Source: a virus. Taken from it: a stretch of DNA of 56,794 nucleotides. Within the stretch, counting starts at the first letter, position 1. The number at the start of each line of letters is the position of its first letter. The DNA lies in IMG/VR virus record IMGVR_UViG_3300032308_002493, positions 1 to 56,794 of that record. One strand, given 5' to 3'. The position numbers and the translations under genes were made by a program. The notes below the pieces were generated by a model that saw nothing but the letters and a program-made list of their open reading frames with translations, was not told the DNA's origin and made no database searches. Shown here one piece after another: positions 1 through 56,794 of this stretch.

Positions 1-186
1 GCTGATCGAGCTGCCTGGCCGGGCCCGGCACTCCTTCTGGAGGCTGATGCAAGTGCTGCCGCAGCCGTAGCCGGTCGAGCACTTTTTCCGGGCTGCATCA
101 ATACGGGCTTCCAGCTCGGTCAGCTGGTGGCGGCGATTCGTATAGGGGTAGATGGCTGGCGCTGCGGCATGGGCCAGTCTGAAGCC
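1..186 (-). CDS. Partial Cys-module effector cassette, cut by the window edge
   Basis: Reading leftward, the frame is open from a TAG at 187-189 to the window edge. It encodes a linker (LTELEARIDAARKKC) followed by the four-cysteine module seen five more times at the right end: C-x5-C-G-x2-C-I-x5-C, then RARPGSSIS. About 40 bases around the cysteines are nearly identical to the module at 52558. No ATG, GTG or TTG precedes the module in this frame; only CTG or ATT could start it. It may be a start-less orphan cassette, a gene using a rare start, or an assembly-edge artefact. The product beyond position 1 is unseen. Confidence 0.5.
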
Positions 187-735: not shown

Positions 736-749
736 GGTACAGCTGTGCC
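736..749. promoter_or_regulatory. Possible operator dyad over the start of the head operon
   Basis: The sequence GGTACAGCTGTGCC is an imperfect palindrome centred on CAGCTG. It overlaps the GTG start at 745 and lies between the divergent repressor and protease genes. Wider half-sites (TGGC-ACAG and CTGTGCCA) flank it. That the XRE protein binds here is inference. Confidence 0.35.
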
Positions 750-2137: not shown

Positions 2138-2719
2138 ATGTCCCCCCTTGTTTTTACCACCAACGCATCATCTATTGATGATGGCGCTCAAATCAGCTAC
2201 CCGGCCCAGGCAGATCGAGGCTTGCCGGGCCAAATTGCCACCAGCGCACTCACCACCATCCTCACCGGCGCCAATGAAACCGGCAGCCGGCTTCTCTACG
2301 GCGTGCCGCTGGCTGTCAATGGATCGGGCCAGCTGCCCAACTCTGTAACCACTCGCACCACTGCAGGGGCCATCCTGGGTATCTCCGCCCGTACTGCCGC
2401 ATTTGAGCGCACTGGCCCCGATAGCTCGCCCGCCTATGCCGACGGCATCCCTGATGGCCGGGCCGTGAACATTCTCACCCGTGGGGTGATCTATCTCGAT
2501 GCTTGGGAAGCCATCGCTATTGGCACCAATCCGGCCGCACCTATCCTGCGTTATTTCAAATCCGGCACCAATATTGGCCGTTGGGGTGTCACGGCTAGCG
2601 CCGGCAACAGCCTGCTGCTGGCGGCTGGTGGCTGGGCCATCCGCAAAGCCGCCGCCGCCGGTGGTGTGGTGATGGTGGAAATCAACACCCCTGCGGCGCT
2701 GACTTTCACCGCCGACTAA
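2138..2719 (+). CDS. Capsid decoration / structural cement-like protein
   Basis: A 193-residue protein rich in small residues and beta-prone, without cysteine or a membrane segment. Its place between the DUF2213 protease and the major capsid gene, and segments such as GVPLAVNGSGQLPNS and GRAVNILTRGVIYLDAW, fit the phage cement or head-decoration proteins that stabilise the shell. The assignment rests mainly on synteny and length. It could also be a minor capsid protein. Confidence 0.55.
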   Translation: MSPLVFTTNASSIDDGAQISYPAQADRGLPGQIATSALTTILTGANETGSRLLYGVPLAVNGSGQLPNSVTTRTTAGAILGISARTAAFERTGPDSSPAYADGIPDGRAVNILTRGVIYLDAWEAIAIGTNPAAPILRYFKSGTNIGRWGVTASAGNSLLLAAGGWAIRKAAAAGGVVMVEINTPAALTFTAD

Positions 2720-2763: not shown

Positions 2764-3705
2764 ATGGGCTACAGCCAAACCCGACAGGATGCCCAGGCCG
2801 CAGCCGGAGCGTTCCTTGAAAATGATCTGCGTCAGAAGCTCAGCAAGTCATTTGAGAAACTTTACCCGGAGTATCATTACGCCCGGATCGTCCCCGTAAG
2901 CTTTGAGTTGGACGAAGGCGCCGAAACCTATAAATATGATCTGTTTGATCGCGTAGGCGATTTTGATCTGGTGGCCGATGCTGCCGACGACCTGCCCCTT
3001 TCCGATGTGAAGCGCGGCGAGGTTGTCAACAGTATTCGCCAATTTGCTGGTGCAACAAAATACACCACCGATGAGGTGAGGAGGGCGCAATTCAGCGGAA
3101 TTCCGCTTCAGCAGCGCCGCATGGACGCAATGCGCATGGCCTATGAGGAGCGGATGCACCGCACCTGCCTGTTTGGCTATGCCGGCACCGGCCTCAAGGG
3201 CTTTTTCAATCACCCGGCCGTGGACCGCCTGGTGGTCACGGGCAGCGCCACTGACGGTTGGTTTGATGCGCCCAACATCACCCCAGATCAGATGAACTCC
3301 CTGCTCAATGAGGGGATTTCGTATCAGGGTAACTTGACAGGCATGGTGGAAAATCCGGATACGCTGCTTCTGCCCTATACCGATTGGCGCAGAGTCAGCT
3401 CTACCCCCAGAAGCAGCAACAGTGACACCACTGTGCTGGAGTTTTTTCTTAAAACCAACGGCACGATCAAGAACGTTGAACCAATCAACGAATTGGATCT
3501 CGGCAAGAGCTTTGGCAACCTGACCGCCAAGCGAATGATCTATTACAAGCGAGATCCGTCAAAGCTGGAATTTCATATTTCCATGCCGCTCAAGTTGCTG
3601 CCGGCGGAGCCCCGCAACCTGGCATTTATCGTAAATGGAGAATCAAAATCTGGGGGCTTTGCCCCCTACTACCCCAAATCGATCACCTACGTCGATAAGG
3701 GCTGA
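2764..3705 (+). CDS. Major capsid protein (DUF2184-like)
   Basis: A 313-residue protein downstream of the protease/scaffold, of the expected length for an HK97-fold capsid subunit. Its pattern resembles the DUF2184 capsid family: an N-terminal helical segment (AAAGAFLENDLRQKLSKSFE), a middle stretch on binding and folding (QFSGIPLQQRRMDAMRMAYEE), GLKGFFNHPAV, and a C-terminal beta-rich part ending KSITYVDKG. The ATG at 2764 follows a 44-base gap without a strong Shine-Dalgarno sequence. It should be the most abundant virion protein. Confidence 0.75.
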   Translation: MGYSQTRQDAQAAAGAFLENDLRQKLSKSFEKLYPEYHYARIVPVSFELDEGAETYKYDLFDRVGDFDLVADAADDLPLSDVKRGEVVNSIRQFAGATKYTTDEVRRAQFSGIPLQQRRMDAMRMAYEERMHRTCLFGYAGTGLKGFFNHPAVDRLVVTGSATDGWFDAPNITPDQMNSLLNEGISYQGNLTGMVENPDTLLLPYTDWRRVSSTPRSSNSDTTVLEFFLKTNGTIKNVEPINELDLGKSFGNLTAKRMIYYKRDPSKLEFHISMPLKLLPAEPRNLAFIVNGESKSGGFAPYYPKSITYVDKG

Positions 3706-32753: not shown

Positions 32754-32932
32754 TGCCATACAAACGACCTGAATTTAGAAACGCGCCTCAAATTGTCACC
32801 GTGCAACGGGCGTTGTATTTAATTGCTGAGCAAGAATTGGCAAGGCAACAGCAAGCCGAGCTGGCGCTAGCTGGGCAGCAGTCGCAATTTGATCTGGAAC
32901 GAATTGGGGCCGCCTTGGTACAAAATCTCTGA
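32753..32932 (+). CDS. 59-residue helical protein, unknown
   Basis: Starts at ATG 32753, overlapping the preceding TAA, and ends at TGA 32932. Gln/Ala-rich helix (ALYLIAEQELARQQQAELAL). The last 66 bases overlap, on the other strand, the end of the integrase gene. Coupling to the operon supports it being translated. Confidence 0.45.
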   Translation: MPYKRPEFRNAPQIVTVQRALYLIAEQELARQQQAELALAGQQSQFDLERIGAALVQNL

Positions 32933-34222
32933 TACAAAATGCAAAAACACTGGCCGCAGCAATTCATCAGGTGCGTGGCTTAGCGCCTCTGGTGAGCGGA
33001 ACAGTTCTTCGTAGAGACCTGGCCAGGTCTCTGCTGGTAGCGCTTGCATCGTGATGATTTGATCCCTGAGCCGAACGATCGAGGTTCCTAGCCCCGTCAC
33101 CCCCTGATCCTGCAGCTGCTCCAATTGCGCCAACTGCTCGCGGTACGTCAGCAGCTCGGGGCATTCCACATCCGGTGGTTCGGCCCCTTCAATCGCCAAC
33201 CGGGCCAGGCGCGGCGCTGCGCGGCGCACCAGCACATCAATTACTGCCGATCGCAGCGTGTCTTCTCGCACCCCTTTCCCCACGTAACAGCAGCCGGGCC
33301 GTTTGCAGGCATATCGCGCCACGCCAGGGCCGTGGACATTTGGTTTCTGGTGCCATTGCAGATTTTTGCCGCACCCCTCGCAGCGAATCAGGCCGCTAAA
33401 TAGATGCCTAACACTGGCGGCTCGTTGCATTGGGCCCTGGCTGCGGGTTTCCAGCTGCCGCCTAATCAGCGTCCATTCAGCCGGTGAGATCAGCGGAGTG
33501 GTGCGACCCCATTCAATTTCTGTGTAGTCCTGCGTGCCGCTGGGGGCTCCCCGGCCAAGCCCGCCGCGCAAGATCGGATTATGCAGCCAACCGGTTAAAC
33601 CCTGAGATGAGTATTGCCTTGGAAAATCAGCAGGCAAGGCCGTCAGTGTTGCGTAGATATTGCATTCGTGCTGAATGATCAACTCAACCAACTGCCTGGC
33701 TGCAGTCCAGGTAACAGGTGATGGCACAACCTGCCCGTCAACGTGGGCATAGCCAAACGGCACAGGCCCCCTGCCTGCATAACCTGCCTCCCGCCGCCGC
33801 CGGATGCCATCGCGCACCTTGATGCTGATCATGCGGGAGGTCACGCGATTCATCACGCTCATCACCCCGGTAAGAGCGAGCCCACCCACCGTTTGGTTCT
33901 CCAGCACCATCCCCTGCAGATCAGCGACCGTGCAGCCGGCGCAATGGCATTCCTCTAGAAAATCCTGATCAGATCCGTCTCGCGCCAATCGCGACAGGTC
34001 TACCACCAGTACCTTGGCCACCAGCCCCTTGGCCACCAGGGCCCTTAATTCTTCCCACCCCGGCCGCCGCTGGCCTGAGTAAGCGCTCCCGCGTTCCACA
34101 ATCACGCGATCGCAGCCAGCCTGCTGCATGTCCCATTGCTGCCCCTCTACGGAGGTGTCTTGCGCCTCCTTGCCGGTGCTAACGCGCACATATCCAATGA
34201 CTAAGCGGCCTGGACGGTCCAT
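32867..34222 (-). CDS. Large serine integrase
   Basis: A 451-residue serine recombinase that would integrate and excise the phage. N-terminal resolvase domain: YVRVSTGKE with catalytic Ser15, then VVDLSRLARDGSD and arginine-rich VTSRMISIKVRDGIRRRREA. A 'recombinase' domain follows (about residues 140-260: GLTGWLHNPILRGGL). Then a zinc ribbon (GLIRCEGCGKN near residue 280, with a second pair RPGCC) and a C-terminal coiled coil. Length suits a phiC31/Bxb1-type enzyme. A 50-bp dyad immediately upstream (34229-34278) is a candidate attP. Transcribed against the replication operon. Confidence 0.9.
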   Translation of the reverse strand: MDRPGRLVIGYVRVSTGKEAQDTSVEGQQWDMQQAGCDRVIVERGSAYSGQRRPGWEELRALVAKGLVAKVLVVDLSRLARDGSDQDFLEECHCAGCTVADLQGMVLENQTVGGLALTGVMSVMNRVTSRMISIKVRDGIRRRREAGYAGRGPVPFGYAHVDGQVVPSPVTWTAARQLVELIIQHECNIYATLTALPADFPRQYSSQGLTGWLHNPILRGGLGRGAPSGTQDYTEIEWGRTTPLISPAEWTLIRRQLETRSQGPMQRAASVRHLFSGLIRCEGCGKNLQWHQKPNVHGPGVARYACKRPGCCYVGKGVREDTLRSAVIDVLVRRAAPRLARLAIEGAEPPDVECPELLTYREQLAQLEQLQDQGVTGLGTSIVRLRDQIITMQALPAETWPGLYEELFRSPEALSHAPDELLRPVFLHFVSEILYQGGPNSFQIKLRLLPS

Positions 34223-36440: not shown

Positions 36441-37904
36441 ATGGTATCGCTGATTGTTCGGCCGCCCAGCATCGTTGATTGGTATTCACCGGATCCGCTG
36501 ATTGGTGGCCCGGCCAAGGCCCAGCCCTGGGAGTCGCTGCCTGGGAAGTGGCCAGATTTTGCGGCGCAAACCCAGATCGCGTCGGGTGGCCGGCACATTC
36601 CGTTTATACCCTTTGCCGCTCAGCGGGAGCTGATAAAAATACACCGCAAGGTGCAAAACGTCTATGTACTGAAGAGCCGGCAGATTGGCATTTCCGAAGT
36701 GATAATCAATTACAAGCTTTGTCAAGCCTGCCGCCGGCCGGCCTGGACCGGTGTGGTGTTCTCCAAAACGGGCGATGACGCCAGCGAGCTGGCAGCCCGC
36801 ATCAAAGGGCAAGCCGCCTCGCTCCGCGATCGGTGCCCCAAATTCGCCAAAGATTCAGCCAGAAAGCTAGTTTTTGAAGGCTTCGGCTCGCTCCACTTCC
36901 TGCCCCCCACCGAGCGGGCCGCCAGGGGTATCCCCTCTGCTGCCTCGATCCTGTTTGACGAAGCGGCGTTCATCTCCAAGCTTGCCGGTATTGAGCAGGG
37001 CGCCCTGCCCTCCACTTCGCTGCTGGGCGACTTTGCCCGCCACCTGTGGGTCACAACCCCCAACGGCCGCAGCGGCACCTTCTCCGACCACTGGCACGCA
37101 GACCACGGGGAAGTGGTGGTGGACCCCACCCCCATGGGGGTTAATGGCATCCCCAGATTGCGCATCTCTCCCGACAATCAATACGCCAAGGTTTGTATTC
37201 ACTATTCCCAGCATCCGGTTTACGGCGTGGATCCGGATTGGGCAGAAAAGTTTCGCCGCAAGCGTCAGCTCAGCCAGCAGCAATGGCGCAGTGAATTTGA
37301 ACTGGATTTCACCGCTTCTGACTACGAGATATTTGCCCACGATCTGATTGAAGCCGCAGAGGCGGCCGGGGGCTGGGATGCCCCCACCTGGGGCCACAGC
37401 TATGTGCTGGGCATCGATCCCAATGGCGGTGGCGGCGATGCCTTCTGCGGCCTGGTGCTCGATGTAACCGAGAGCCCTTGGCGGGTGGTGGCCGGGTTCA
37501 ATGAATCTGGCTGCAGCCGCGACTACGGCCTGCAGCGCTGCGCCAGGCTGATTGATGAATACGGCCCCACGCTGGTGGCCGTGGAAAAAAACGGCGTCGG
37601 GGCGGCAGTGGCGGAGGCCCTGTGTCTACTGCGGCCCGGCACTGAGCTGGAGGAGATCTACACACTTGGCCCCAACAAAATCACAATGACCGATCGGCTG
37701 GTGTTGCTGCTGGAGCAGGGCGAGCTCACCATCCCACCCAACAGCTATGTGGGCAGCGAGATGCGCAATTTCCGCCAAACAGAAAAGGGCGACCGCAAAG
37801 CCGCCCCAGGTCACCATGATGATGCGGTAATGGCCCTGGCCATGGCCGGGCAAGCCGGCGCCAGGATCAGGCCCCTAACTAACAGCTGGATTTCAATGAT
37901 TTAG
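36441..37904 (+). CDS. Terminase large subunit
   Basis: A 487-residue packaging motor. The ATPase domain has a Walker A-like KSRQIGIS (residues ~78-85) and Walker B ILFDEAAF (Asp173, Glu174). Coupling motif VTTPNG is near 198. The RNase H-like nuclease domain has GIDPNGGG (Asp326), VAVEKNG and HHDDAVMA (Asp460/461). Both active sites appear intact. Adjacent small subunit and downstream portal (41189) make up the packaging module. Confidence 0.9.
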   Translation: MVSLIVRPPSIVDWYSPDPLIGGPAKAQPWESLPGKWPDFAAQTQIASGGRHIPFIPFAAQRELIKIHRKVQNVYVLKSRQIGISEVIINYKLCQACRRPAWTGVVFSKTGDDASELAARIKGQAASLRDRCPKFAKDSARKLVFEGFGSLHFLPPTERAARGIPSAASILFDEAAFISKLAGIEQGALPSTSLLGDFARHLWVTTPNGRSGTFSDHWHADHGEVVVDPTPMGVNGIPRLRISPDNQYAKVCIHYSQHPVYGVDPDWAEKFRRKRQLSQQQWRSEFELDFTASDYEIFAHDLIEAAEAAGGWDAPTWGHSYVLGIDPNGGGGDAFCGLVLDVTESPWRVVAGFNESGCSRDYGLQRCARLIDEYGPTLVAVEKNGVGAAVAEALCLLRPGTELEEIYTLGPNKITMTDRLVLLLEQGELTIPPNSYVGSEMRNFRQTEKGDRKAAPGHHDDAVMALAMAGQAGARIRPLTNSWISMI

Positions 37905-41068: not shown

Positions 41069-41188
41069 GGCCTGCTTTAACGCAACGCACCATGAATATA
41101 TTGCGGCTGCATCCCGGCTGCAGGATAAAGCGACGGCGGCGTGGTTTTATCCGCCCCGCTGCCTAGCCTGGCCCAGGCGCCATTCCCC

Positions 41189-43219
41189 ATGTCCGGTCAA
41201 TCCCCTCCATTGCTAGAGGAGCGCAACGATGGCGTGTTGATCAATGCGCTGACGCGCATGGGCACCAGCCGTGACCGCTCCAGCTACACGGCCATAGCTC
41301 CAGTTCGCTTGCTGCAAGAGGAAGAGCTGGACAACCTCTACGTGAGCAGTTGGCTTTGCCGTCGGGTGGTGGACCTGGTTGCCAGTGAAGCCACCAGGTC
41401 CGGCTGGGGTATCGCCGTGGGAGGCGATGTGAATGAGGCCCAAAAAAAGCGCCTCGACAAACTGGTATCGGCCGGGGAAAGCCTGGGCATTCGAGATCAT
41501 GTGCGCGAGGCCTTGCGCATGGCACGCCACCATGGCGGGGCGGTGATTGTGCTGTTGCTCGACGACGGGCTACCAATCAGCAAGCCCGTGGATCCCAAAC
41601 GGCTGCGCTCGATTCGGGGCCTGTACGCGATGGATCGCTGGCGCATCTGGCCTGCCCCTGGTTGGTCTGGGGTGGGCGCACCGGATCGTTATCAATTTGT
41701 TGTATATCAAGACGACGATTTGAAGCGAGCGGGAATGGATGAGCAGGAAATAGGGGTGCCAATTCATAGTTCCCGTTTGCTGCGCTTTGACGGCGACCCC
41801 CTGCCCCCCAGGCTTAAAGGCCAGAACAACTGGTGGGGCGTGTCTGTGCTGCAGAGCCTCTGGGAGGTGTTTAAACGATATGAAACCGGACAGAAAAGCG
41901 GATCGGCCATCCTCGACGATTTCAGCCTTTTTGTGCAAAAAATAAAGGGTTTAGGCCAGATGGTGGCCAATGGGAAGGAGGCGGCAATTCAGGCCCGGCT
42001 GGAACTAAACGGCCTATGCCGGTCTGTGTTGGGAGGCATTGCCATCGATGCCGACGGCGAGGACGTTGCCTGGATCACCCGATCCCTGGGGGGCATCGAT
42101 ACGGTGATCGGCAAGCTGGAAACGGAAGTGCAGGGGGCCTCCAGGATCCCCCACACCAAGCTCTGGGGCGCGTCCCCCAGCGGTCTGGGGGCCAATGGCC
42201 GATCAGAGGATGCCGCGTTCGCAATGGAGGTGGGCCAGCAGCAGCAGGATCATTTGGATCGGCCCCTGCGCCGCTTTTACGAGCTGCTGGCTGCCTGTTC
42301 CCGCGGGCCCGCAGCCATGGAGCTGCCAGAAGACTGGAAAATCGATTTCCACGACACCTTTGTGCTTTCGGATTCAGAGGAAGCCGAGCTGCGCTCCAAA
42401 CAAGCAACCACAGATACCGCCTATATCAGGGAGCAGGTGATCACACCTACGGAGGTGGCGCTGGCTCGATTCAGCGGCGCCAAATTCTCCATGGAGACCG
42501 TGCTGCTCAACCGGGAAGCGGATGGCTCCATCCCCCAGCCCGATGAGGGCCCCGGCCCCGATTTTGGTGGTGACCTGGAATCGGCAGACACCACCGGCGG
42601 CGACCCAGCCAGCGGTGATACCCCCGATGAGCCCACCGCTCCAGCCGCATCAGCGGCGGCCGGCACCGCCGAGCTCACGCCAGAGGAGCAGGCCGCCGCG
42701 GCCAGGGGTGACGGCCTGGCAGGCGCCAGCGATCCCCGAGAGGATGGCTGTTGCTCCGCCTGCGATGAAGAGGTTGCGCAGCAGCAAAAAGACACCTCCG
42801 CACCGGAGGAAGAGCCCATCCCGGATGACGGCCAGGCCCTGGCTGCGGCCATCGCCCAGCGGATTGCCAAGCCCGGCAGCGCTCGGCGCCGCGGCAGGCG
42901 GGCTGGTGTGCGGGCCGATGGGGCTCGAATCACCGGCCGGCGGGTGGTGGCGGGCGTGCCGCTGGAGGTGCGGGCCGATGGTTCCGCCGCCCTGGTGGGC
43001 CCCTACGGCCAGCCAATTGCGAGGCTGAATGCAGCGGTAGGTTTTGACAGCGAGGGGCTGTGGGAGGTGCTGGGAGCTGGCGGCCAGTGGTGCGCTGTGG
43101 TGGGAGTGAACGATGCCGAGCTGGTGAGCACCGCGGCAGGGGCCAGCGCCCGGGTGAGGCGGCTGGATGGACTCGATTTGATCGCCATGGGTGTGAGGTG
43201 CGACAGCTATGGGAATTGA
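41189..43219 (+). CDS. Portal protein (DUF1073-type)
   Basis: A 676-residue protein from ATG 41189 (an alternative ATG at 41141 adds 16). The first ~430 residues match DUF1073/HI1409-like portals: NLYVSSWLCRRVVDLVASEA, SRLLRFDGDPLPPR, WGVSVLQSLWEVFKRYE and FHDTFVLSDSEEAELRS. The ring is the gate for DNA. The C-terminal ~230 residues are extra: an acidic Ala/Pro/Gly-rich linker with DGCCSACDEE, a basic patch (GSARRRGRRAGVR) and a beta domain. It overlaps MuF by 11 bases. Confidence 0.75.
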   Translation: MSGQSPPLLEERNDGVLINALTRMGTSRDRSSYTAIAPVRLLQEEELDNLYVSSWLCRRVVDLVASEATRSGWGIAVGGDVNEAQKKRLDKLVSAGESLGIRDHVREALRMARHHGGAVIVLLLDDGLPISKPVDPKRLRSIRGLYAMDRWRIWPAPGWSGVGAPDRYQFVVYQDDDLKRAGMDEQEIGVPIHSSRLLRFDGDPLPPRLKGQNNWWGVSVLQSLWEVFKRYETGQKSGSAILDDFSLFVQKIKGLGQMVANGKEAAIQARLELNGLCRSVLGGIAIDADGEDVAWITRSLGGIDTVIGKLETEVQGASRIPHTKLWGASPSGLGANGRSEDAAFAMEVGQQQQDHLDRPLRRFYELLAACSRGPAAMELPEDWKIDFHDTFVLSDSEEAELRSKQATTDTAYIREQVITPTEVALARFSGAKFSMETVLLNREADGSIPQPDEGPGPDFGGDLESADTTGGDPASGDTPDEPTAPAASAAAGTAELTPEEQAAAARGDGLAGASDPREDGCCSACDEEVAQQQKDTSAPEEEPIPDDGQALAAAIAQRIAKPGSARRRGRRAGVRADGARITGRRVVAGVPLEVRADGSAALVGPYGQPIARLNAAVGFDSEGLWEVLGAGGQWCAVVGVNDAELVSTAAGASARVRRLDGLDLIAMGVRCDSYGN

Positions 43220-44738
43220 TCGCCGCGAACAGCTGGCCGAACAGCTCAGCGAGGCTTTGCGGGGCCTGGAAGACCCAGCAATCCAGCGCATCGGCCGCAT
43301 TTTTGAAGCAGCGCTGAGGGATACCGTGGCGCGGGTGTTTGAGCTGCTGGAGACGAATGCCGATCAGCCCGACTACAACCCCGCCAACAGCCCCGGTGCC
43401 TTTCTGGGCAGCACCCCAGATGGGCCGGTTCCCATTGAGCCGCTGCAAAAAAACCAGGCAGGGCTGCTGCTGCAGGCCCAGCTGATTCAAGATTTGCGGG
43501 TGGTGCTCAATGCGGTGCCGCTTAGCCCCGAGCGGCTGGAGCGATTGAACGGGGAGCTGCGCCAGCTGTTCGATCGGGCCCAGGACCTGGGCACCAATTA
43601 CGGACTGCAGCTGATTCAGGCAGATCTGGCCCCGGCCATGGTCCAGCTCGATCCCGATGGCACCATTCGCCAACTGCCAGGCCAGGAGGCAGCGCCGGCG
43701 GCGCCAGCATCGCCAGCGCTGCCCGGCACTGCCCCCCAGTCTCCAGCGGGGCCTCTGATTGGTGGTGGCCCCAGCCCCACCGGCGGACGGCCCACCGCCT
43801 CAGCCCCGGCCACCGGACCCGCCGGCCCCTTGGCAAGCGGCGGCCCTGGCCTCGGCCCCGATCGGCAGTATCAGGGCGGCCAGCGGCTGACGCGCTTGTT
43901 TGATCTTTCCGGGGCGGTGGTGGCCGCCGAGCGGGATTTCAAGGGCCTATCGGAAAACTACCGCCGCGAACGGGATTTAGCGACCGATCAACACGTGGCC
44001 GCGGCGAAGCACTATTACTCCAAATGGTGGGGCGAGTGGGGGGAAAGCGTGTCGTTTGAGACCTCGCGCCAGATGGCCCAGGGGCCGGACCCCAAAACCC
44101 TGGCGCGGAATTTGCGGGAGCGGATTCCCACGATCAACGAGGCGTTTCAAAATCGGGCGGAAACCATCGCCCGCACCGAAACCCTGATGGCCTCCGGCGA
44201 AGCCCAGGAGCGCTGCTGGCGCAAATTGCGCGTGGGTTTTGTGCAATACATGGCCACGCTGGACGAACGCACCTGTGAGTTCTGCGCCCCCCGCTCTGGC
44301 TGCATTTACTACATCGGCTCAGTAAAGAGCCCGATTCACCCCAACTGCCGCTGCCAGGAAACACCGGTGAGCCTGGAATCGCTGGCGATTGAAAACGACC
44401 TGGCGGATAAACCAGCCGAGCGGTGGGAGGCCCAGGCCAAGCGCCATCACAAAAACACCCTGGGCCATTTCTTCCGGGCCAATGGCAAGGGGGCCAAATT
44501 GCGGCCGGTGGGTGGTGCGGGTGATGAGCGCTTCACACCACGCGATTACCCGTTGATGGAGCGCAAGCAGCTGCCCCAATCCGTGCCCCGCCAGGGGCTG
44601 GGGGGGGAAGATCCGCTGAACCTGGCCGCCAGGCCCTGGCCCACAGGCGATCCGGTGTGGTGCCCCAGGCGCGGCTGGCTGGATCCAGCAGCCCAAGCCG
44701 CCTACGACGCGATCGTGCGCGAGGTGGCCGAGCTCTGA
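43209..44738 (+). CDS. MuF-like head morphogenesis protein
   Basis: A 509-residue protein. Helical N-terminal half and a Pro/Gly/Ala linker (about residues 160-215). The MuF domain follows at about 315-400: RAETIARTETLMASGEAQER, MATLDERTCEFCAPRSGC and HPNCRCQ, with the conserved cysteines and histidine. MuF proteins are minor head components, and genes directly downstream often encode proteins injected with DNA. Here the effector array begins about 5 kb downstream, after an accessory cluster. Confidence 0.8.
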   Translation: MGIDRREQLAEQLSEALRGLEDPAIQRIGRIFEAALRDTVARVFELLETNADQPDYNPANSPGAFLGSTPDGPVPIEPLQKNQAGLLLQAQLIQDLRVVLNAVPLSPERLERLNGELRQLFDRAQDLGTNYGLQLIQADLAPAMVQLDPDGTIRQLPGQEAAPAAPASPALPGTAPQSPAGPLIGGGPSPTGGRPTASAPATGPAGPLASGGPGLGPDRQYQGGQRLTRLFDLSGAVVAAERDFKGLSENYRRERDLATDQHVAAAKHYYSKWWGEWGESVSFETSRQMAQGPDPKTLARNLRERIPTINEAFQNRAETIARTETLMASGEAQERCWRKLRVGFVQYMATLDERTCEFCAPRSGCIYYIGSVKSPIHPNCRCQETPVSLESLAIENDLADKPAERWEAQAKRHHKNTLGHFFRANGKGAKLRPVGGAGDERFTPRDYPLMERKQLPQSVPRQGLGGEDPLNLAARPWPTGDPVWCPRRGWLDPAAQAAYDAIVREVAEL

Positions 44739-45189: not shown

Positions 45190-45525
45190 ATGCGGGCCCA
45201 GATCGTCGAGACGGAGCTGGTCACAAGGCGCAGCTGGCATGGCAGCATCCGCGCAGCCTGGGGCGGGCAATGCGCCTACTGCGGCGCCACCGCTCAATCA
45301 CTCGATCACGTGATCCCCCGCAGCCGGGGCGGCCCCACCGTTCGTGAAAACTGCGTACCGGCCTGCCTGGCATGCAACGGAAGCAAGGGCAGCCGGGAGG
45401 TGCTGAGCTGGTGGCGGCTCCGGCCCGGCTGGTCGGCCCTCAGGGAGCAGCGGCTGCTGGAGTGGCTGGCGGGCAATAACAATGGCGGCAATGAGAAAGG
45501 GGCCCCGAAAGGCCCCTTTCCATAA
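45190..45525 (+). CDS. HNH endonuclease
   Basis: A 111-residue protein with an HNH domain: [16 protein letters not shown] (the metal-bound His), then [13 protein letters not shown] with the second CxxC. Small HNH proteins near portal and terminase help DNA packaging or act as homing nucleases. Here it lies 450 bases after MuF, facing a minus-strand cluster. Hairpin at its 3' end. Confidence 0.75.
45496..45519. terminator. Hairpin at the end of the HNH gene
   Basis: AAAGGGGCC (45496-45504), loop CCGAAA, GGCCCCTTT (45511-45519). The symmetric A/T flanks allow termination in either direction between convergent genes. Confidence 0.5.
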
Positions 45526-46617: not shown

Positions 46618-47352
46618 CTAAGGCGCTAGCCGTGCCTTAGCCCAGCGGTGCTGGTGATACCAGGCGGCGATTTCAGGGGCCCAACTTTGCAGGTGGGGCC
46701 ACATCAAATCGCAGAGCTGGCGAATTTCATCCTGGGCATCGAGCTTGGCCCGCAGGTCTAGGAAGTGCAGGAAGGCCCGCAGGCTGAAGCTCACCACAAA
46801 GTGTTGGCGAACGTCGAATGGAATTAACCCCCTGGCCTGCTCAAATGGCTCGCCAAGACAAACACTGAAGCGGTAGGAAAGGGCGGCTTCGTGGCAGCGC
46901 TTAACATCAAGGGCGCGCTTTTGGGTTGTGTATTCATAAGCCTTGCCGGAGTCTGGGTCTCTGTAAGTCCCCGCCGGCCTAATGTAAAACACATCTTCAA
47001 GGTCCAGCTCGCCTGTGGCAGCATCGCAGATGCGCACCCCCGTATAGCGTAGACTCTGCACATCGAACGAAACCCCGACCCGATGTGTGCGGGCCTGCTG
47101 CATCACGGAATGGGGAAACCAGCCCACGTTGAGTACGATCTGGCCGTGCTCCAGGGGCCCGTAGTGGCCGCGGTCGCCGGCCAATAGGCGCTTGACGCAG
47201 ATCTCGCCAGCCTTGGTTTCGTCAGGCCAACTGGCACGGCTATCGAATACAAAACCTTCGCTGTAGTCCTGGTGCATCGCCGCGTAGACGCACTGCTGGG
47301 GGTGGGGGGTGGCGGCGATCAGGTCAACTCTGAAGCGGGAATCCATGGTCAT
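46618..47352 (-). CDS. thyX: Flavin-dependent thymidylate synthase
   Basis: A 244-residue ThyX-like protein that makes dTMP from dUMP using FAD and methylene-tetrahydrofolate. The signature region (residues ~85-100) reads RTHRVGVSFDVQSLRYTG, a degenerate RHRx7S motif of the type seen in picocyanobacteria and their phages. GLIPFDVRQHFVVSFSLRAF and FLDLRAKLDAQDEIRQL match the conserved C-terminal region (RxxLPxxxxx and LxLR). It supports phage DNA synthesis. Overlaps the next minus gene by four bases. Confidence 0.85.
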   Translation of the reverse strand: MTMDSRFRVDLIAATPHPQQCVYAAMHQDYSEGFVFDSRASWPDETKAGEICVKRLLAGDRGHYGPLEHGQIVLNVGWFPHSVMQQARTHRVGVSFDVQSLRYTGVRICDAATGELDLEDVFYIRPAGTYRDPDSGKAYEYTTQKRALDVKRCHEAALSYRFSVCLGEPFEQARGLIPFDVRQHFVVSFSLRAFLHFLDLRAKLDAQDEIRQLCDLMWPHLQSWAPEIAAWYHQHRWAKARLAP

Positions 47353-49979: not shown

Positions 49980-50759
49980 GTGCCATCCGCCACTGAATTT
50001 GACCGTCAACACCTGGCGGCATCACGCAGCTACCTGAAGGCCTTCTACGGCTGGAGCGGTGCCCGGCTGGATGGGTTTCTGGCTGTGGAGCAAGGCCTGG
50101 TGCGCTTTGATGCACCCAAAAGATGCACCAAGGGACTCGCCTGCGGCAACACTTGCATCGCGCAGGGCCGCACCTGCAGGGCCAAGGGCAACCCGCAGAA
50201 AACCGCCCGGCTCAAGCAACTGCTGGCCTTGCCTGCTGCTGGCCAGAGCAGTGCGGGAGCCATGGCCAAGGGCAGTGGGGGCAATCAGGCAAGCACTCCG
50301 GCCAAGGCTGCAGGCAAGCCCGCCAAGCGCGAAACCATTGCTCAATTACAAAAACCCGTCCTTGATTACTTCAAGGTGAAAACCGTTCAAGAACTAAAGA
50401 CAAACAAAGATTTCCTGATGGCAATTGGAGACGCTGACTCCAGGCAGGCAACCGGCAAAGGTGTAAAGATTGACTTTAAAAAGCGAGAGACATGGGCCAA
50501 GCTGCACCGTGAATTTGCCGGGGTGCCAGCCTCTGAGCGGAACCTGAAAGATGGCGGCAGCGTAATCAGAGGCGTTGACGTAATGAAGAACTTCCGCCCC
50601 TGGCACACCTTCAACCTAGACCCTAAAAAAGCCACGCCACAAGACATCAAGCGGGCTTTTAATCAGCTGGCCAAGACCTACCACCCAGACCAGGGCGGTG
50701 ACCGCAAAGTGTTTGAGCGGCTGATAAAAATGCGCGATTCGTTGTTGGCGCTTCGCTGA
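49980..50759 (+). CDS. Cys-module protein with a C-terminal J-domain
   Basis: A 259-residue protein starting with GTG 49980. Residues ~1-45: helical lead with YLKAFYGWSGARLDGFLA. Cys module at ~47-70 (KRCTKGLACGNTCIAQGRTC). Lys/Ala-rich linker (about 75-115), an unknown helical middle domain (KTVQELKTNKDFLMAIGDAD), and a C-terminal DnaJ-like J-domain at ~210-259: FNQLAKTYHPDQGGD with the HPD motif at 235-237. J-domains recruit and stimulate Hsp70, so an injected protein could commandeer host DnaK. No zinc-finger or substrate-binding domain of DnaJ is present. Confidence 0.65.
   Translation: MPSATEFDRQHLAASRSYLKAFYGWSGARLDGFLAVEQGLVRFDAPKRCTKGLACGNTCIAQGRTCRAKGNPQKTARLKQLLALPAAGQSSAGAMAKGSGGNQASTPAKAAGKPAKRETIAQLQKPVLDYFKVKTVQELKTNKDFLMAIGDADSRQATGKGVKIDFKKRETWAKLHREFAGVPASERNLKDGGSVIRGVDVMKNFRPWHTFNLDPKKATPQDIKRAFNQLAKTYHPDQGGDRKVFERLIKMRDSLLALR
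50118..50190 (+). repeat. Cys module, copy in the J-domain gene
   Basis: Encodes C-x5-C-G-x2-C-I-x5-C-R with residues TKGLA, NT and AQGRT in the gaps. The spacing is identical to all other copies but the sequence is the most divergent. Confidence 0.75.
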
Positions 50760-50838
50760 GCCCGCTCTTGTCCCCCCTTCTGATCGATGGCCACCACCTA
50801 CCGCGCAGATCGCCGCAGACTGGCGCAGCGCTAAAGCC

Positions 50839-53800
50839 TTGCCATTGTTGACCCTCGCCCAGCTGGAAGTGCGACTGGCGCGGCTGGATGCCGCCAGCTC
50901 CAGGGCGGCGCCCCTGGCACCGGTGGCTGCGGCCGTTGCGCAATCGGCGGATACGGTGGCGCAGCTGCTGACCCAGGCGCTGGGGGAGCTGTTGCCGGGG
51001 GCTGCGGTGTTGAGCTGGGATCGGCGCCGGCCGGGCCTGGTGGCGGGGCAGATGGCAGCCGATGGGCTGGTGTTCCAGTTCCGCTGTGACGCCAATCAAA
51101 TTTCATATCGTCCCGCCTGGGATGGGCTGAGCCAGGGGCGATGGGAGGCCCGCAGCGCTGGCTTCCTGGCGGCCCGATCGCCAGGGCTGCGGCTCGATGC
51201 TCCAGGGGCTGGCGGCAAAAAGCGCTGCAGCAGGGGCTACGGCTGCGGCAACAGCTGCATCTCTCTGAAGAATGAATGCCGGCTAAAGGTGAGCTCGGCC
51301 GCCAGCAAAACGCGGCTGCAGCGGTTGCAGGCCCTCGCCAATGCCGGTGATGCCGCCGCCGGCACCCTGGCCGGGCAGGAACAGGCCAAGCGGAACTCCC
51401 AGGCCGCGGCCATCAAGGGCCAGCGCCAACAGGAGCGGGCTGCCAGGGCGCCCAAAACGCCCCCCAGCCTGGCGGGCCAGGTGCGGGTGGTGGCACCGGC
51501 CAGCATTGAGGTGGATCCCGAGCGGTTTCAGTTCAAGCTGGGCCATGGCGCCCAGGGAGAGGTGGGCTCCCTGCGAGGGGTGCGCAAGTGGGATGAGAAT
51601 TTGGCTGGGGTGGTGTCGGTTTGGCAGGACCCGGCGGATGGCAAAACCTATGTGGTGAATGGCCATAACCGGCTGGGGTTGGCCAAGCGCCACGGGGCGG
51701 AGGGGCTCACCGTGCGTTACCTCAAGGCTGCCTCGGCTGCAGAGGCGCGGGCGATCGGGGCGCTGCAAAACATTGCGGAAGGGGCCGGCACACCGGTGGA
51801 TGCCGCCAAGTTTTTTCGAGATAGCAATATCCGCAGCCAGACGGATGTGGAGAAGTTGGGTTTGCCGCTCAGCAGTGGCCGGGCGGCCCAGGGGCTGGGG
51901 TTGGCACGGCTGCCTGCAGAAATGTTCCGCTCGGTGGTGGACGGGGATCTGAGCGCCAGCCGTGGGGCAATCATCGGCAACTCAGGCCTTGATGGCCCAA
52001 AGATGAGCGAGATCGGCAAGTTGTTGCGGCAGCGCAAAAACATATCTGACGGCACATTGGCGGAGTTTGTGGAGGCCCTGGCCGTGAGCGAGCGGCAAAG
52101 CCAGCAAACATTTGATCTATTTGGCGCTAACGAAACGCTGGTGGATAACGGTCTGGCACGGGCTGAATTAACCAACGCAATTGCCAAAAAGATCAGCAAG
52201 GAGAAGCGACTATTTAAGATGGTGAGCAACTCCCAGGCGGCGGCCACCCTGGCGGAGAAGGCGGGCAATGTGATCAACAAGGGCGAGAGCGCCGAAGTGG
52301 CCAGTGCCGCCGATCAGCTGGGGCGCACCTTCAAGGCGCTCAAAAATGTGTCTGGCCCCATGGCCACCGCCATCAATGCCGCTGCCCAGCAGGTGAGCGA
52401 AGGAGCCAACAAAACAACGGTGCAACGCAAACTGTACGCGGAGGTGGTGGCCGCAATGGAGCTTGAATTCAAGGGCAAGCGCCGCGATGGCTGGGGCCAA
52501 AGCACCATTGATCGCTTTGCAGAGCTGGAAGCCCGCATTGATGCGGCCAAGAAGAAGTGCTCGACCGGCTACGGCTGCGGCAGCACCTGCATCAGCCTGC
52601 GCAAAGAATGCCGGGCCAGGCCGAGTAGCAGCATCGGAAAAGAGCGGCTGAAGCGGCTGTTGGCCTTGGCCGGCGGTGGAGTTTCTGACCAGCGGGGGAT
52701 CGCCCCGGTGCGGGCCGCCGAGGCCACGGCCCTGGCCGGAGCGCTTGAGCAGCGCCGGGAGGAGAAGGCCCAGCAACTGAAGGGCACCCGTCAAAAGGCC
52801 ACAGCGGATGATCTCGCTAAACGACTGATCAAGGCAGAAGCAAACCTGGCCGCAAAGAGCAAGATGCCTGCACCACCACCAGGCAATGGAAAGCCTGGTG
52901 TGAAGGTGGAGATCCAACGGGCCAAGCCAGGAGGTGAGTACGGGCCCGATGGCCACTGGTATCCAGGCGGCGCATGGATGAGCCAGGGCCAGTTTGTGGG
53001 AGGCAAAGAGCAGGCCCTTGGCAGTGGTGAGCAGCCGGCGTCAGCAACTGGCAAGGAAAACAGCGGCGCCAGCCAGCGGGTGATCAGGAACAAGGAAAAG
53101 CCCAGGAGGGAGCAACCAACCGAGCCCAAGGGGAAGGGACTGGATCAGCCTGTCGGGCTGAAGAAGACAGCGGCCAAGAACGATGAGGACTTCTTCAACG
53201 ACAGGGGCTTTGTTCTCTATCCCCGTCCAAAAGGCGCTGCAGGCCTGAATGGGCTTCTGTTCGACGCTGCAGTCATTCAGCGGATGTCGACAGAAGAGCT
53301 GGGCTGGGCAACGGATCAGATCCTGACCATGGGGAACGTCAAGCGGAGCGATCTGGGCGTTGTAAATGATCTGGAGAATGCCGCCACAAGGTTTGGCAGC
53401 GAAAAGGACTATCTCAACTACCAGAGGTCTTTTACCCGAAACCAGCTCATCGGCGTGGATGACAAAAGGTTCAAGGCCGGCCTGATCTTCATGGACGCCA
53501 GCCGCAACCTGGGCCACACCAGTCCAGCGCAGCAGCGCCTCCGCACCAGGCGCAAGACAACGGAAAACCCACCGGAGAGGAAGGGCGAGCAGGGGGACTG
53601 GGTCTGGGGCCTGAACAACGTGTTCCGCGCCGTGCAGCTTCGCCGGGATCGCATGGCAGCCCCCTCGGTGCTCACCAACCCCGGCCGCCAGGATCCCGGC
53701 CTGGCCTCCAAGGCCAAGCAGCCAGGCCTCAACGCCCAGGACGTGACCACCAGCACGCAACAAGCCGCCTTTGCTCGCCAGCAGCAGCAGGCGGCCAAGG

Positions 53801-55560
53801 CCGCCGGGGATCAATCCGGGGCACAGGCCTGGCGCAAAGAGGAGCGGACCGTGGAGCGCAACCGGCTGGCCACCGCCATCGGCCGCAACAAGCAGAGCCA
53901 GAGCTCGCTGTTTGGAGTGACCGAATACGACGAGACCATGCCGCTGTTCAAGAAGCGGGGCGACGGCCGCCGGCTGGATGCCGACATCCTCGAAGCCAGG
54001 ATCGATGCACTGCGTCGGAAGTGCCAGACCGGTTACAACTGCGGCAGTACCTGCATCAGCCTGCGGAAGGAATGCCGCAGCAGGCCAGGCAGCTCAATCA
54101 GCAAGGAGCGGCTCAAGCGGCTCCAGCAACTGGCCCGGGGCGAGGTGGCCCCCAGGGGGCTGGGGGTGCCCAGGGGCGCGGCAGCCACCGCCCTGGCCAC
54201 GGACATTCAGGGGCGGCGCAATGCCAGGGCGGCAGAGCTCACGGGGCAGCGGGCACAAGCCGGGCTTATCCCCACAGCGCTGCCGTTTAGCGATCAGATG
54301 GCCGCCCGGATCCGGAAGGGCATTGAGGAGCGCACCGCTACCACCGGCACCGTCAACTACGACGGCAAGGATTTGGCAGCGGCGATGATCAAGGCGGCCC
54401 AGTCGCCTCAGGTAGGCGAAAACATGCGCAAGGCCCTGGCCTTCATGGAAGAGGCCGGAATTATGACAAATATTGCCGCGAACAGCAATGAAGAGATTAA
54501 GCGGATAACTGGAAAGCCTGCCAGCGAACTGCCGTGGCAGCGGCCATTGGAACTTGCCAAGTTCGTACGTGATGCGGGGCTGGTGTCGGATGAAAGACTG
54601 GAATGGCTGAAGAAAGACCAGACTCAGGCCGGTCAGGCGGTGGTCCGGCGTGCAGAGATTGTTCGCAACCCACCAAAGCCCAGCAACGAAGAAAAGCAAG
54701 CAAAAGCCAACTACGAAAAATCAAAGGCTTACATAAAAGAGCAAGAGCAAGCATTTGATAGAAGCGTGCGCCAGGGCTGGAGATTTCCCGAGGACAAAAA
54801 AAGCTTTATGCAGGCCACCAAAAACATGACAGGCTTGGAGAACGATCGCAATCGCTATTTTGCGTATAGAGACGGCAGGTTGAATCAGATCAAGTGGGCA
54901 GTGCTAGAATTTGCCTGTGGCAAAGGGTTAGCAGGGCTTACGTCAAGCGAGAATGGTGGCTACTACTCTTTCGGGCAAAAAAAGTATGTGGCAGTCGCCG
55001 GCAATACGGACAAAAGCTGGGCTGGCGTTTACAAGGTTGACGAAAACAACACAGACCCAAGGAATATGCGAAGGCACTACGCCGAGCACATGGCAAAGCA
55101 CCTCCCGGACAGGCTCGCCGGGCTGTCTCAGACATCCGACAACTTCGACGTGCTCCACCAGCCTCTAGGGTTTAGCGGGAGGCAAACACACGCCGAAAAA
55201 ACCCTTAGCATCCATATCCATGAGCTGGGCCATGTCGTGGATAACTTTGCTGATGTGCGGGTCAGGGAGATCCCCGCAACCGCCGCTGGACCAAAACAAA
55301 TGGTGCTCTCCCATAATTTTCTTGAGCGAGTAGAGAAAAGGCCCGAGGCTGTTAAAAAAGCGCTTAGGGAGAAACGGGCGCCATCAAACTATGCTTTAAC
55401 CAACGCCGAAGAGCTGTTTGCCGAATCGTTTGCGGCTTGGGTGTTTGCCCCACGTGCATTGAAGCGGCATCACCCAGAACTGCATGCCTGGGTAGAGGAC
55501 CGATTTACAAGGGCACGTACTACCATGGCGAAGCATGGGCACCTAAGGTTTGAGGAGTAG
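50839..55560 (+). CDS. Giant modular effector: ParB-like, unknown and zinc-peptidase domains
   Basis: A 1573-residue polyvalent protein. Start is unclear: only TTG codons (50839 onward) are available; a 15-codon ORF from ATG 50787 lies just upstream. Order: N-terminal beta module (to ~105), Cys module at ~127-150, ParB-like domain around the GHNRLG motif (~275) with a helical extension to ~560, Cys module (Cys574), a GPDGHWYPGGAWM element (~705), an unknown domain (~780-980), Cys module (Cys1062), then a helical part and a C-terminal zincin with HELGH (1461-1465) and NAEELFAESFAAW (Glu1524/1529) as the likely third ligand. It should act in the newly infected cell if injected. Similar composites downstream of MuF are known as polyvalent proteins. 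Confidence 0.75.
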   Translation: MPLLTLAQLEVRLARLDAASSRAAPLAPVAAAVAQSADTVAQLLTQALGELLPGAAVLSWDRRRPGLVAGQMAADGLVFQFRCDANQISYRPAWDGLSQGRWEARSAGFLAARSPGLRLDAPGAGGKKRCSRGYGCGNSCISLKNECRLKVSSAASKTRLQRLQALANAGDAAAGTLAGQEQAKRNSQAAAIKGQRQQERAARAPKTPPSLAGQVRVVAPASIEVDPERFQFKLGHGAQGEVGSLRGVRKWDENLAGVVSVWQDPADGKTYVVNGHNRLGLAKRHGAEGLTVRYLKAASAAEARAIGALQNIAEGAGTPVDAAKFFRDSNIRSQTDVEKLGLPLSSGRAAQGLGLARLPAEMFRSVVDGDLSASRGAIIGNSGLDGPKMSEIGKLLRQRKNISDGTLAEFVEALAVSERQSQQTFDLFGANETLVDNGLARAELTNAIAKKISKEKRLFKMVSNSQAAATLAEKAGNVINKGESAEVASAADQLGRTFKALKNVSGPMATAINAAAQQVSEGANKTTVQRKLYAEVVAAMELEFKGKRRDGWGQSTIDRFAELEARIDAAKKKCSTGYGCGSTCISLRKECRARPSSSIGKERLKRLLALAGGGVSDQRGIAPVRAAEATALAGALEQRREEKAQQLKGTRQKATADDLAKRLIKAEANLAAKSKMPAPPPGNGKPGVKVEIQRAKPGGEYGPDGHWYPGGAWMSQGQFVGGKEQALGSGEQPASATGKENSGASQRVIRNKEKPRREQPTEPKGKGLDQPVGLKKTAAKNDEDFFNDRGFVLYPRPKGAAGLNGLLFDAAVIQRMSTEELGWATDQILTMGNVKRSDLGVVNDLENAATRFGSEKDYLNYQRSFTRNQLIGVDDKRFKAGLIFMDASRNLGHTSPAQQRLRTRRKTTENPPERKGEQGDWVWGLNNVFRAVQLRRDRMAAPSVLTNPGRQDPGLASKAKQPGLNAQDVTTSTQQAAFARQQQQAAKAAGDQSGAQAWRKEERTVERNRLATAIGRNKQSQSSLFGVTEYDETMPLFKKRGDGRRLDADILEARIDALRRKCQTGYNCGSTCISLRKECRSRPGSSISKERLKRLQQLARGEVAPRGLGVPRGAAATALATDIQGRRNARAAELTGQRAQAGLIPTALPFSDQMAARIRKGIEERTATTGTVNYDGKDLAAAMIKAAQSPQVGENMRKALAFMEEAGIMTNIAANSNEEIKRITGKPASELPWQRPLELAKFVRDAGLVSDERLEWLKKDQTQAGQAVVRRAEIVRNPPKPSNEEKQAKANYEKSKAYIKEQEQAFDRSVRQGWRFPEDKKSFMQATKNMTGLENDRNRYFAYRDGRLNQIKWAVLEFACGKGLAGLTSSENGGYYSFGQKKYVAVAGNTDKSWAGVYKVDENNTDPRNMRRHYAEHMAKHLPDRLAGLSQTSDNFDVLHQPLGFSGRQTHAEKTLSIHIHELGHVVDNFADVRVREIPATAAGPKQMVLSHNFLERVEKRPEAVKKALREKRAPSNYALTNAEELFAESFAAWVFAPRALKRHHPELHAWVEDRFTRARTTMAKHGHLRFEE
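51217..51288 (+). repeat. Cys module 1 of the giant protein
   Basis: KKRCSRGYGCGNSCISLKNE then CR. Followed by a basic helix (TRLQRLQALANAG) that replaces the usual KERLKRL element. Confidence 0.75.
52521..52656 (+). repeat. Cys module 2 of the giant protein with linker
   Basis: ELEARIDAAKKKC leader, four-cysteine core and KERLKRLLALA helix. Nearly identical in DNA to the minus-strand copy at the left edge over about 40 bases of the core. Confidence 0.8.
53989..54172 (+). repeat. Cys module 3 of the giant protein with full tail
   Basis: LEARIDALRRKC leader, core, SISKERLKRLQQLARGE helix and a PRGLGVP tail. Thirty bases (ending in CCCCCAGGGGG) are identical with the copy at 55978-56175. Confidence 0.8.
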
Positions 55561-55567
55561 CGCTGAG

Positions 55568-55912
55568 ATGGCCGGCGACATAAAGGATGCCCAGGCATTG
55601 ATAACAGGCATGAACGGAAAGTTAGATCGTTCTGCTGTTGTTCGTTGGGCTGCAATCAAAAACAAAGCTACAGGCCGGGAGCGAGAGGCAATTTCCTGGA
55701 TGGCTGAAGCCTTTGGCCCCATGACAAAAACAGAGGAAGACCGCCGCTGGCTGTCAAGTTTCCTTAGTGGGATCCCTGAATCAGCGCCAAAAAAGAGCAC
55801 CCGCGGCGATGGTGTTGGCCACCAAAGCCCAGGCGATCGACTTGCCGAGCTGGAGACGCGAATTGATGCTGTCAGTAAGGCCAACGGCTCCAGGCCGCCG
55901 CTGCAGCAGTGA
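55568..55912 (+). CDS. Small protein ending in an orphan module leader; possible partner of the peptidase
   Basis: A 114-residue protein from ATG 55568, eight bases after the peptidase stop. Helical N-terminal half (DAQALITGMNGKLDRSAVVR, ISWMAEAFGPMTKTEEDRRW). Its C-terminus reads DRLAELETRIDAVSKANG, the usual leader of the Cys module, but stops where the cysteines should begin. It may be an immunity or regulatory protein for the preceding peptidase, or a cassette that lost its module by recombination. Confidence 0.5.
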   Translation: MAGDIKDAQALITGMNGKLDRSAVVRWAAIKNKATGREREAISWMAEAFGPMTKTEEDRRWLSSFLSGIPESAPKKSTRGDGVGHQSPGDRLAELETRIDAVSKANGSRPPLQQ

Positions 55913-55953
55913 AGCCCACCCCCCGCCGCCGGCAACTGCCCAAGGGCTGATCC

Positions 55954-56794
55954 ATGGCGGTGAGCACTGACATCAATGCCCGGTTTGCAGCCCTCGGGGC
56001 CCGCATCGATGCGGCGCGGAAGCGCTGCGGCACCGGTTACAGCTGCGGCAACAGCTGCATCAGCCTTCAGAAGGAATGCAGGGCCAGGCCTGGCAGCGCG
56101 ATCAGCAAGGAGCGGATTCAGCGGCTTCAGCAGCTGGCCCGGGGCGAGGTGGCCCCCAGGGGGTTAGGTGTGCCTGGGCAGACGGCCGCGGCGGCCATGG
56201 CTGCCAGCCTTCACGGCCAGCGCAGCCAAAGGGCCGTTGAACTGCAGGCCAAGCGGCAAGCGAGGGCTCGCCAGTCCGCTCCAGTGGCGGCGATCACGGC
56301 GGCCGAGATAAAGCGGGCCTTCCCGCTGCCCACCGCCCAACAGCGCCAGCAGCGCGATCAGCTGCAAAACGCCACCAACCTGGCCGCAGCCGAACGCCAG
56401 GCGGTTTTCGATTACAGCGCCACCACCAGAGGGCCTCGGGCGGCATCAGCGCTCAACCGCTGCCTGCGACAACCGGCCAGCTGCCGCCAGAAAAAGGCCA
56501 CCGCCGCCATGGCAACAGATTTTGATGCCGCATTGCAAAAATTACCCAAGAACATAGAAGGTGCCCCTTTTTATCGGGGCATAGCAGTAAAAGACAGCAA
56601 TATGCAACGCCTGTATCAACAATTGCTCAAGGCTCGGCCTGGTGAGCGGTTTGCGGATCAGGGTTACGGCTCCTACTCCGACGACCGGCGAGTGGCGGCC
56701 ATCTATGCGGAGGCCAATGGCCCCGCCCCAGCGATCGTGTTGGTGAGCCGCAGCCAGGCCATCACCGGCATCAGTGCCATCTCCGGCTACCGCA
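55954..56794 (+). CDS. Cys-module ADP-ribosyltransferase, truncated by the window end
   Basis: From ATG 55954 the frame is open to the window end (280 residues seen). Leader and Cys module (residues ~8-50), helix ISKERIQRLQQLARGE and PRGLGVP tail, Gln/Arg-rich linker, then an ART-like domain from about residue 190: GAPFYRGIAV with the NAD-binding arginine, ERFADQGYGSYSDDRRVA resembling the STS strand, and PAIVLVSRS. The catalytic E-x-E lies beyond the end. RSE-class ARTs modify host proteins. It is the third different catalytic domain behind the same module. Confidence 0.65.
   Translation, partial: MAVSTDINARFAALGARIDAARKRCGTGYSCGNSCISLQKECRARPGSAISKERIQRLQQLARGEVAPRGLGVPGQTAAAAMAASLHGQRSQRAVELQAKRQARARQSAPVAAITAAEIKRAFPLPTAQQRQQRDQLQNATNLAAAERQAVFDYSATTRGPRAASALNRCLRQPASCRQKKATAAMATDFDAALQKLPKNIEGAPFYRGIAVKDSNMQRLYQQLLKARPGERFADQGYGSYSDDRRVAAIYAEANGPAPAIVLVSRSQAITGISAISGYR
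55978..56175 (+). repeat. Cys module of the ADP-ribosyltransferase
   Basis: ARIDAARKRC leader, core with GTGYS, NS and SLQKE gaps, then the same helix and PRGLGVP tail as the copy at 53989-54172. High DNA identity suggests recent duplication or gene conversion. Confidence 0.8.

Follow-up and report, generated by a model that had tools for sequence, protein, structure and literature searches.

The 56.8-kb linear virus record IMGVR_UViG_3300032308_002493 (positions 1 to 56,794, referred to here as the window) encodes a short cysteine module that is repeated next to a series of different effector domains. A six-frame scan of the window for the cysteine core returned exactly six matches, with the first cysteine (Cys1) at 50124, 51226, 52558, 54022 and 56026 on the forward strand and at 81 on the reverse strand (Table 1), and the spacing C-x5-C-G-x2-C-I-x5-C-R, which an initial annotation of the sequence had claimed for all copies, is exact in 6/6 cores. 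A protein query made from one copy recovered all six (E = 3e-8 to 5e-28), which excludes a chance resemblance between them; the copies share 60-80% DNA identity. The initial annotation also described a leader (ELEARIDAxxKKC) and a tail that travel with the core. The R-x-D-A part of the leader is invariant and separated from Cys1 by a linker of 3-8 residues, whereas ELEARIDA as a whole is not invariant; the tail KERLxRLxxLA is clear in copies 3-5 but only loosely kept in copies 1-2, and PRGLGVP, present in copies 4 and 5 only, was rejected as a component of the module. Copy 6 is the sole reverse-strand copy seen anywhere, and it was given no weight because the sequence around it (bases 1-326) lacks colinearity with the nearest relatives (L053 and L117), possibly due to an assembly edge or a rearrangement.

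The five forward-strand copies are located in open reading frames (ORFs) for a J-domain protein (copy 1), a 1573-aa protein (copies 2-4) and an ADP-ribosyltransferase (ART) protein (copy 5). The variety of attached domains noted earlier (J-domain, ParB-like, unknown, HELGH peptidase and ART) was borne out by profile matches to DnaJ, to phrog_21 (ParB-like segment, E 3e-49) and to the M90/ATLF-like zincins (E 3e-6; the name ATLF means only that the profile of a zincin family was matched), and by the ADPrib_exo_Tox match of a relative of the ART protein. The domains found on modules in relatives are Zeta toxin, kinase-like APH/RIO, LPD1 (large polyvalent protein-associated domain 1), ART, M90/ATLF-like zincins and DnaJ, in arrangements such as a J-domain with Zeta toxin, LPD1 with a J-domain, ART or a kinase-like domain.

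Table 1 Module copies, module-bearing ORFs and head genes of the window
Feature	Position	Strand	Details
Module copy 1	50103-50231	+	RFDA 50103-50114; core CTKGLACGNTCIAQGRTCR from 50124; in the J-domain protein ORF (49980-50759)
Module copy 2	51172-51357	+	RLDA 51190-51201; core CSRGYGCGNSCISLKNECR from 51226; precedes ParB-like segment
Module copy 3	52501-52689	+	RIDA 52534-52545; core CSTGYGCGSTCISLRKECR from 52558; precedes segment of unknown function
Module copy 4	53971-54153	+	RLDA 53971-53982; RIDA 53998-54009; core CQTGYNCGSTCISLRKECR from 54022; precedes HELGH zincin region
Module copy 5	55969-56157	+	RIDA 56002-56013; core CGTGYSCGNSCISLQKECR from 56026; precedes ART domain, incomplete at contig end
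Module copy 6	4-108	-	RIDA and core CSTGYGCGSTCISLQKECR; truncated by contig start
J-domain effector protein, 259 aa	49980-50759	+	HPD motif (HPDQGGD); Pfam DnaJ E 1.1e-5
Polyvalent protein, 1573 aa	50839-55560	+	Module 2, ParB-like (residues 196-527), module 3, unknown, module 4, HELGH zincin (residues 1450-1553)
120-aa ORF	55550-55912	+	Ends ELETRIDAVSKANGSRPPLQQ: R-x-D-A tag at C-terminus, without cysteines
Module 5 and ART ORF	55954-56793	+	Incomplete at contig end; relative in L053 matches ADPrib_exo_Tox, E 9e-6
DUF2213 head-maturation protease/scaffold	745-2094	+	PF09979 E 1.5e-38; R-x-D-[AS] 7 vs 0.7 expected; acidic C-terminal part (-30)
Cement/decoration protein	2138-2719	+	PF22758 E 1.8e-17
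Major capsid protein (MCP)	2764-3705	+	PF09950 E 4.4e-48; R-Q-D-A at residues 7-10 (2782-2793)
Large terminase subunit	36441-37904	+	Terminase_6C E 6e-6; no R-x-D-[AS]
Portal protein	41141-43219	+	PF06381 E 1.4e-64
MuF-domain minor head protein	43209-44738	+	PF04233 E 1.8e-9; no R-x-D-[AS]

Alignment of 19 divergent copies of the module left only the R, the D and C-C-G-C-C invariant. R-x-D-[A/S] is found no more than 30 aa upstream of the core in 100 of 110 unique cores, in 67 of them exactly four residues before Cys1, and the cores that do not have it mostly carry R-x-D followed by a different residue. The spacing to Cys1 across copies is 3 to 15 residues in most and longer in some, and because of this variability R-x-D looks like a separate linear motif. 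Its distribution was assessed as observed counts against those expected by shuffling, pooled over proteins of the window and of the cyanophages PaV-LD and CL131. R-x-D-[AS] is enriched in the protease/scaffold (19/1.6), the MCP (4/0.4), the module proteins (22/4.6) and the portal (7/2.1); the counts are 1/1.3 for terminase and 0/4.0 for 23 non-structural proteins. In IMG/VR relatives, the counts for [RK]-x-D-[AS] are 106/12.2 in DUF2213 and 51/17 in portal proteins, and 1/11.8 in MuF and 0/6.9 in terminase; the depletion seen in these last two extends to the cement protein.

Most portal sites are in C-terminal linkers rich in P and E, and in 12 aligned MCPs an R and a D at the extreme N-terminus are invariant among variable neighbouring residues, the motif being at residue 9 in PaV-LD and CL131 and at residues 24 and 30 (as K-x-D-A) in two T1-like phages. 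Across 57 representative module proteins, the motif has a density of 1.47 per 100 aa close to tags versus 0.16 elsewhere; of the sites away from tags, 34/51 are no more than 60 aa from the ORF end, many of them in C-terminal tails like LQARLDALRAR. In the structure of the Pam3 MCP (chain 8hdt), 300 of the 310 residues are modelled, a figure that would agree with loss of the N-terminus without demonstrating it. AlphaFold2 (AF2) modelling of the MCP gave a predicted local distance difference test (pLDDT) score of 34, and the fold search from this model was not counted as evidence.

Two scans of viral contigs yielded 36 and 70 module loci, a profile search yielded approximately 110 unique cores, and copies were present in 50/50 virus records searched whole, with up to 11 per record. 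Among annotated phages the module was found only in Planktothrix phage PaV-LD (ORFs 061, 065, 078-081 and 085) and Aphanizomenon phage CL131 (gp044, gp045, gp047 and, with four copies, gp048), both of which are cultured cyanophages; no Cys module proteins were found elsewhere in the phage collection, T1-like phages included. The 1811-aa gp048 of CL131 (L044, 12706-18141) has several alpha/beta-hydrolase-like segments between its four Cys modules and one two-cysteine form. In the PaV-LD deposit, ORF081 is named 'virion structural protein' and ORF085 'minor virion protein', which is suggestive only. A liquid chromatography-tandem mass spectrometry list of 23 CL131 virion proteins has been published (PMC6293099). 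Single-sequence and alignment scans of 84,980 bacterial and archaeal species genomes returned no close relative of the module, and a host-protein origin was rejected; the single-sequence scan gave no match at all, the alignment scan two weak look-alikes and one spurious match. The look-alikes are small proteins of Pararhodobacter and Celeribacter (L110:9758-10090 and L111:9809-10084) with the knuckle CxxGYxCGxxCIxxxxxC and apparent signal peptides, and are possibly a case of convergence.

Nearly all module copies fall in the block of portal, MuF, protease and capsid genes, with a portal gene in the same record in 37/50 module-bearing contigs and a DUF2213 gene in 22/50. The proposed tie to phage head genes is supported, and the pattern set out beforehand as contrary to it, with the module mostly in non-phage proteins away from MuF, is clearly not the one found. 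The recurring order in relatives is portal, module genes, MuF, module genes, DUF2213, cement and MCP, on one strand throughout, with a few small module ORFs downstream of the MCP (e.g. in L010 and L109). Since relatives have module genes between MuF and DUF2213, the window, in which MuF sits 5.2 kb upstream of the module genes, looks like a permuted piece of such a genome. The assignment of DUF2213 as a putative protease and scaffold is based on family annotation and on a gene position analogous to that in Pa193, where a putative scaffold gene occupies the same position ahead of the decoration and capsid genes (PMC11042391). Unlike MuF-fused polymorphic toxins, the window MuF protein carries no module, and no toxin domain is joined to MuF in one polypeptide; phrog_16619 matches MuF and the module at separate profile positions, hinting that MuF-module fusions exist elsewhere.

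A second core form, C-G-x2-[WH]-I-x5-C, which is without Cys1 and Cys3, occurs in the same proteins. Unique cores with R-x-D upstream comprise 73 with four cysteines, 18 with Cys2 and Cys4 only, and none intermediate. As Cys1 and Cys3 are gained or lost together, pairing of Cys1 with Cys3 and of Cys2 with Cys4, putatively as disulfides, is favoured over a four-ligand metal site if the two forms are homologous. A two-cysteine query against the phage collection gave no match. The module is strongly basic, with a mean charge of +7.1 in 44 aa (99% at least +4; random windows +1.9), and the C-terminal part of DUF2213 is acidic (-26 to -47), which suggests that the modules are recruited by this part of the protein through charge. 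The AF2 model of the module consists of a helix, two short strands and a helix (pLDDT 70). Foldseek searches with this model found nothing in the PDB and weak matches only in BFVD, and neither PDB sequences searched with the module profile nor Pfam gave a match.

Natural swaps of effectors are visible in L012, L021 and L026, in line with the earlier proposal that the module makes effectors interchangeable. The three share a leader, to which different effectors are attached at the tag; past the joint, L026 corresponds to the last segment of L012 (99.5% identity) and L021 to the segment before last (99.0%), and the joints coincide with R-L-D-A and Cys1 or lie only a few bases away. In L037 (4474-7562), three tandem genes have near-identical tagged N-terminal regions and divergent remainders. 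Across all pairs, 6/30 similarity break-points fall inside modules on both molecules, a weak excess given that modules make up 10% of the length.

The motif distribution, gene order, domain variety, charge and one clear swap series are direct observations. The interpretation that we place on them, with slightly better than even confidence, is that the module is the cargo tag of a head-loading system, with an R-x-D head-protease site and a Cys knuckle carried on packaged polyvalent effectors. From the enrichment of R-x-D in the scaffold, the MCP N-terminus, portal linkers and cargo, and its avoidance in MuF and terminase, we infer that it is the site cut by the head protease; packaging, disulfides and ejection are likewise predictions from sequence. 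Each effector segment would consist of R-x-D-[A/S], a short basic linker, the four-cysteine knuckle and a basic helix. Module proteins would be made late with the head genes and pulled into the prohead, aided by the attraction of the basic modules to the acidic scaffold part of DUF2213. The protease would then cut after R-x-D in its own scaffold domain, the C-terminal linkers of the portal, the MCP N-terminus and the cargo, destroying the scaffold and releasing the effectors as separate proteins, each with an N-terminal Cys knuckle. The knuckle, with its probable Cys1-Cys3 and Cys2-Cys4 disulfides, would keep the cargo attached to DNA or to the inner face of the capsid until ejection with the genome, and as the tag would be self-contained, recombination at the tag could swap effectors. 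The initial annotation had offered a packaging, membrane-passage or processing tag; packaging plus processing fits best, with R-x-D-[A/S] shared with the MCP, portal and protease/scaffold, and membrane passage, on which none of the results bears, was rejected.

Several points weigh against this interpretation. Tail proteins show a mild twofold excess of R-x-D-[AS] (11/5.6 in the three phages), the counts come from related sequences and cannot be taken as independent, and shuffling takes no account of local composition; the window portal has a single site, close to the shuffle expectation. The flanks of the two-cysteine core are different and it may be unrelated to the four-cysteine form, so that the case for disulfides is weakened; confidence in the AF2 model of the module is modest, and it has no solved-fold match. 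In the MCP only a few residues precede the site, and many C-terminal sites are 5-20 residues from the stop, so that cuts there would remove little and a docking motif would look alike. The strongest rival is a docking rather than a cutting motif, in which R-x-D-[A/S] would gather the MCP, portal, protease and cargo at one hub (shell, scaffold or portal) and the knuckle would be a small structural cap. We regard this as unlikely, though deserving of serious weight: the sites at extreme termini, including the MCP N-terminus and effector C-termini, and the placement of the motif inside a helix in the AF2 model agree with it, but the portal copies are in P/E-rich linkers of differing character, the scaffold domain has about 4-6 copies or more, as expected if it is shredded, and depletion in MuF, terminase and cement suits the avoidance of cutting better than missing docking.

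A zinc knuckle of four cysteines, binding cargo to the packaged DNA and playing no part in processing, would account for the four conserved cysteines and the strong positive charge (+7), and the proteins are made in a reducing cytoplasm. It appears improbable to us, as the frequent Cys2 and Cys4 form without intermediates is unlike the loss of a four-ligand site, the small bacterial look-alikes with similar knuckles have apparent signal peptides, PDB sequence and Foldseek searches turned up no zinc fold, and the shared R-x-D would be left unexplained. That the repeats serve chiefly for recombination or are remnants of duplication, the peptide having no dedicated function, is very improbable despite the exchange at the tag in L012/L021/L026, the tandem genes of L037 that share a tag and then diverge, and the DNA identity between window copies, because R, D and the four cysteines are kept in the distant PaV-LD and CL131, even in copies of low overall identity, which argues that the peptide is under selection, and because the break-point excess in modules is weak.

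Between MuF and the module genes, where leftward genes break into the head block, the window has an HNH endonuclease gene (45190-45525, forward strand) and a ThyX-like gene (46618-47352, reverse strand; identified by eye). A serine recombinase gene with Resolvase and Zn_ribbon_recom domains (32867-34222, reverse strand) suggests that the window virus is a temperate phage or an integrated element.

The proposed cargo tag resembles the capsid-targeting sequence of phage T4, in which a short tag containing a head-protease site directs unrelated internal proteins into the prohead, the site being common to structural proteins; the packaged cargo of T4 includes the ART Alt. R-x-D-[AS] is common to, and enriched in, the cargo and the protease, MCP and portal, its role as a protease site being a predicted one. 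The T4 site is of the L/I-x-E type and located at one N-terminus, whereas the present motif, as read from sequence, is R-x-D, recurs within long chains and has a Cys knuckle after it. In the giant phage SPN3US (gp245), prohead-protease substrates are cut after A-x-E, a motif that occurs several times in propeptides and is common to the portal and internal ejection proteins (PMC10052503). The form of the motif, with a fixed P3, a free P2 and an acidic P1, is alike in the two systems and also resembles that of the T4 site; the SPN3US system differs from the present one in R-x-D, in the internal repeats and in the capsid lineage, SPN3US sites being mainly in N-terminal propeptides. In phage P1, DarA is cut by the head protease, like the MCP N-terminus, and is required to package the polyvalent DdrB and DarB; the parts of that source considered here describe packaging via DarA/Hdf and no common Cys tag on P1 cargo (PMC12810830).

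Polyvalent proteins of phages and conjugative elements carry several conflict domains per chain, among them ParB-like, metallopeptidase, ART and LPD1 domains, are associated with portal/MuF packaging genes and are predicted to be packaged (Iyer et al. 2017, PMC5512222). The module proteins would belong with them because of LPD1 and the packaging context: the 1573-aa protein combines ParB-like and zincin domains, relatives add ART and LPD1, and the genes are portal-linked. Here, unlike there, module repeats stand between the domains; a text search of that article for 'cysteine' gave no match, and neither a Cys tag nor the shared R-x-D was seen to be described in it.

T1-like phages (Drexlerviridae) have an MCP of the same family, and in L120 and L124 [RK]-x-D-[AS] is present near the MCP N-terminus and repeated in the head protease. 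This motif may therefore be the protease code of a far larger capsid lineage that includes the Drexlerviridae. It is possible, though we would not yet lean towards it, that an addressed-cargo system is general in the DUF2213 capsid lineage, in which R-x-D and the knuckle would make the following domain a released, packaged and injected effector, and phages would load changing sets of effectors from one precursor, exchanged at the tag.

The R-x-D shared with capsid, portal and scaffold offers a concrete, testable rule for how polyvalent proteins enter the virion and how their domains are released, in a system that is carried by two cultured phages, PaV-LD and CL131. If the rule is true, head-protease substrates could be predicted from R-x-D sites throughout a large capsid lineage, T1-like phages included, and the tag would flag injected cyanophage effectors that are otherwise unannotated. 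The tag could also be of use in the laboratory for loading phage heads with foreign proteins.

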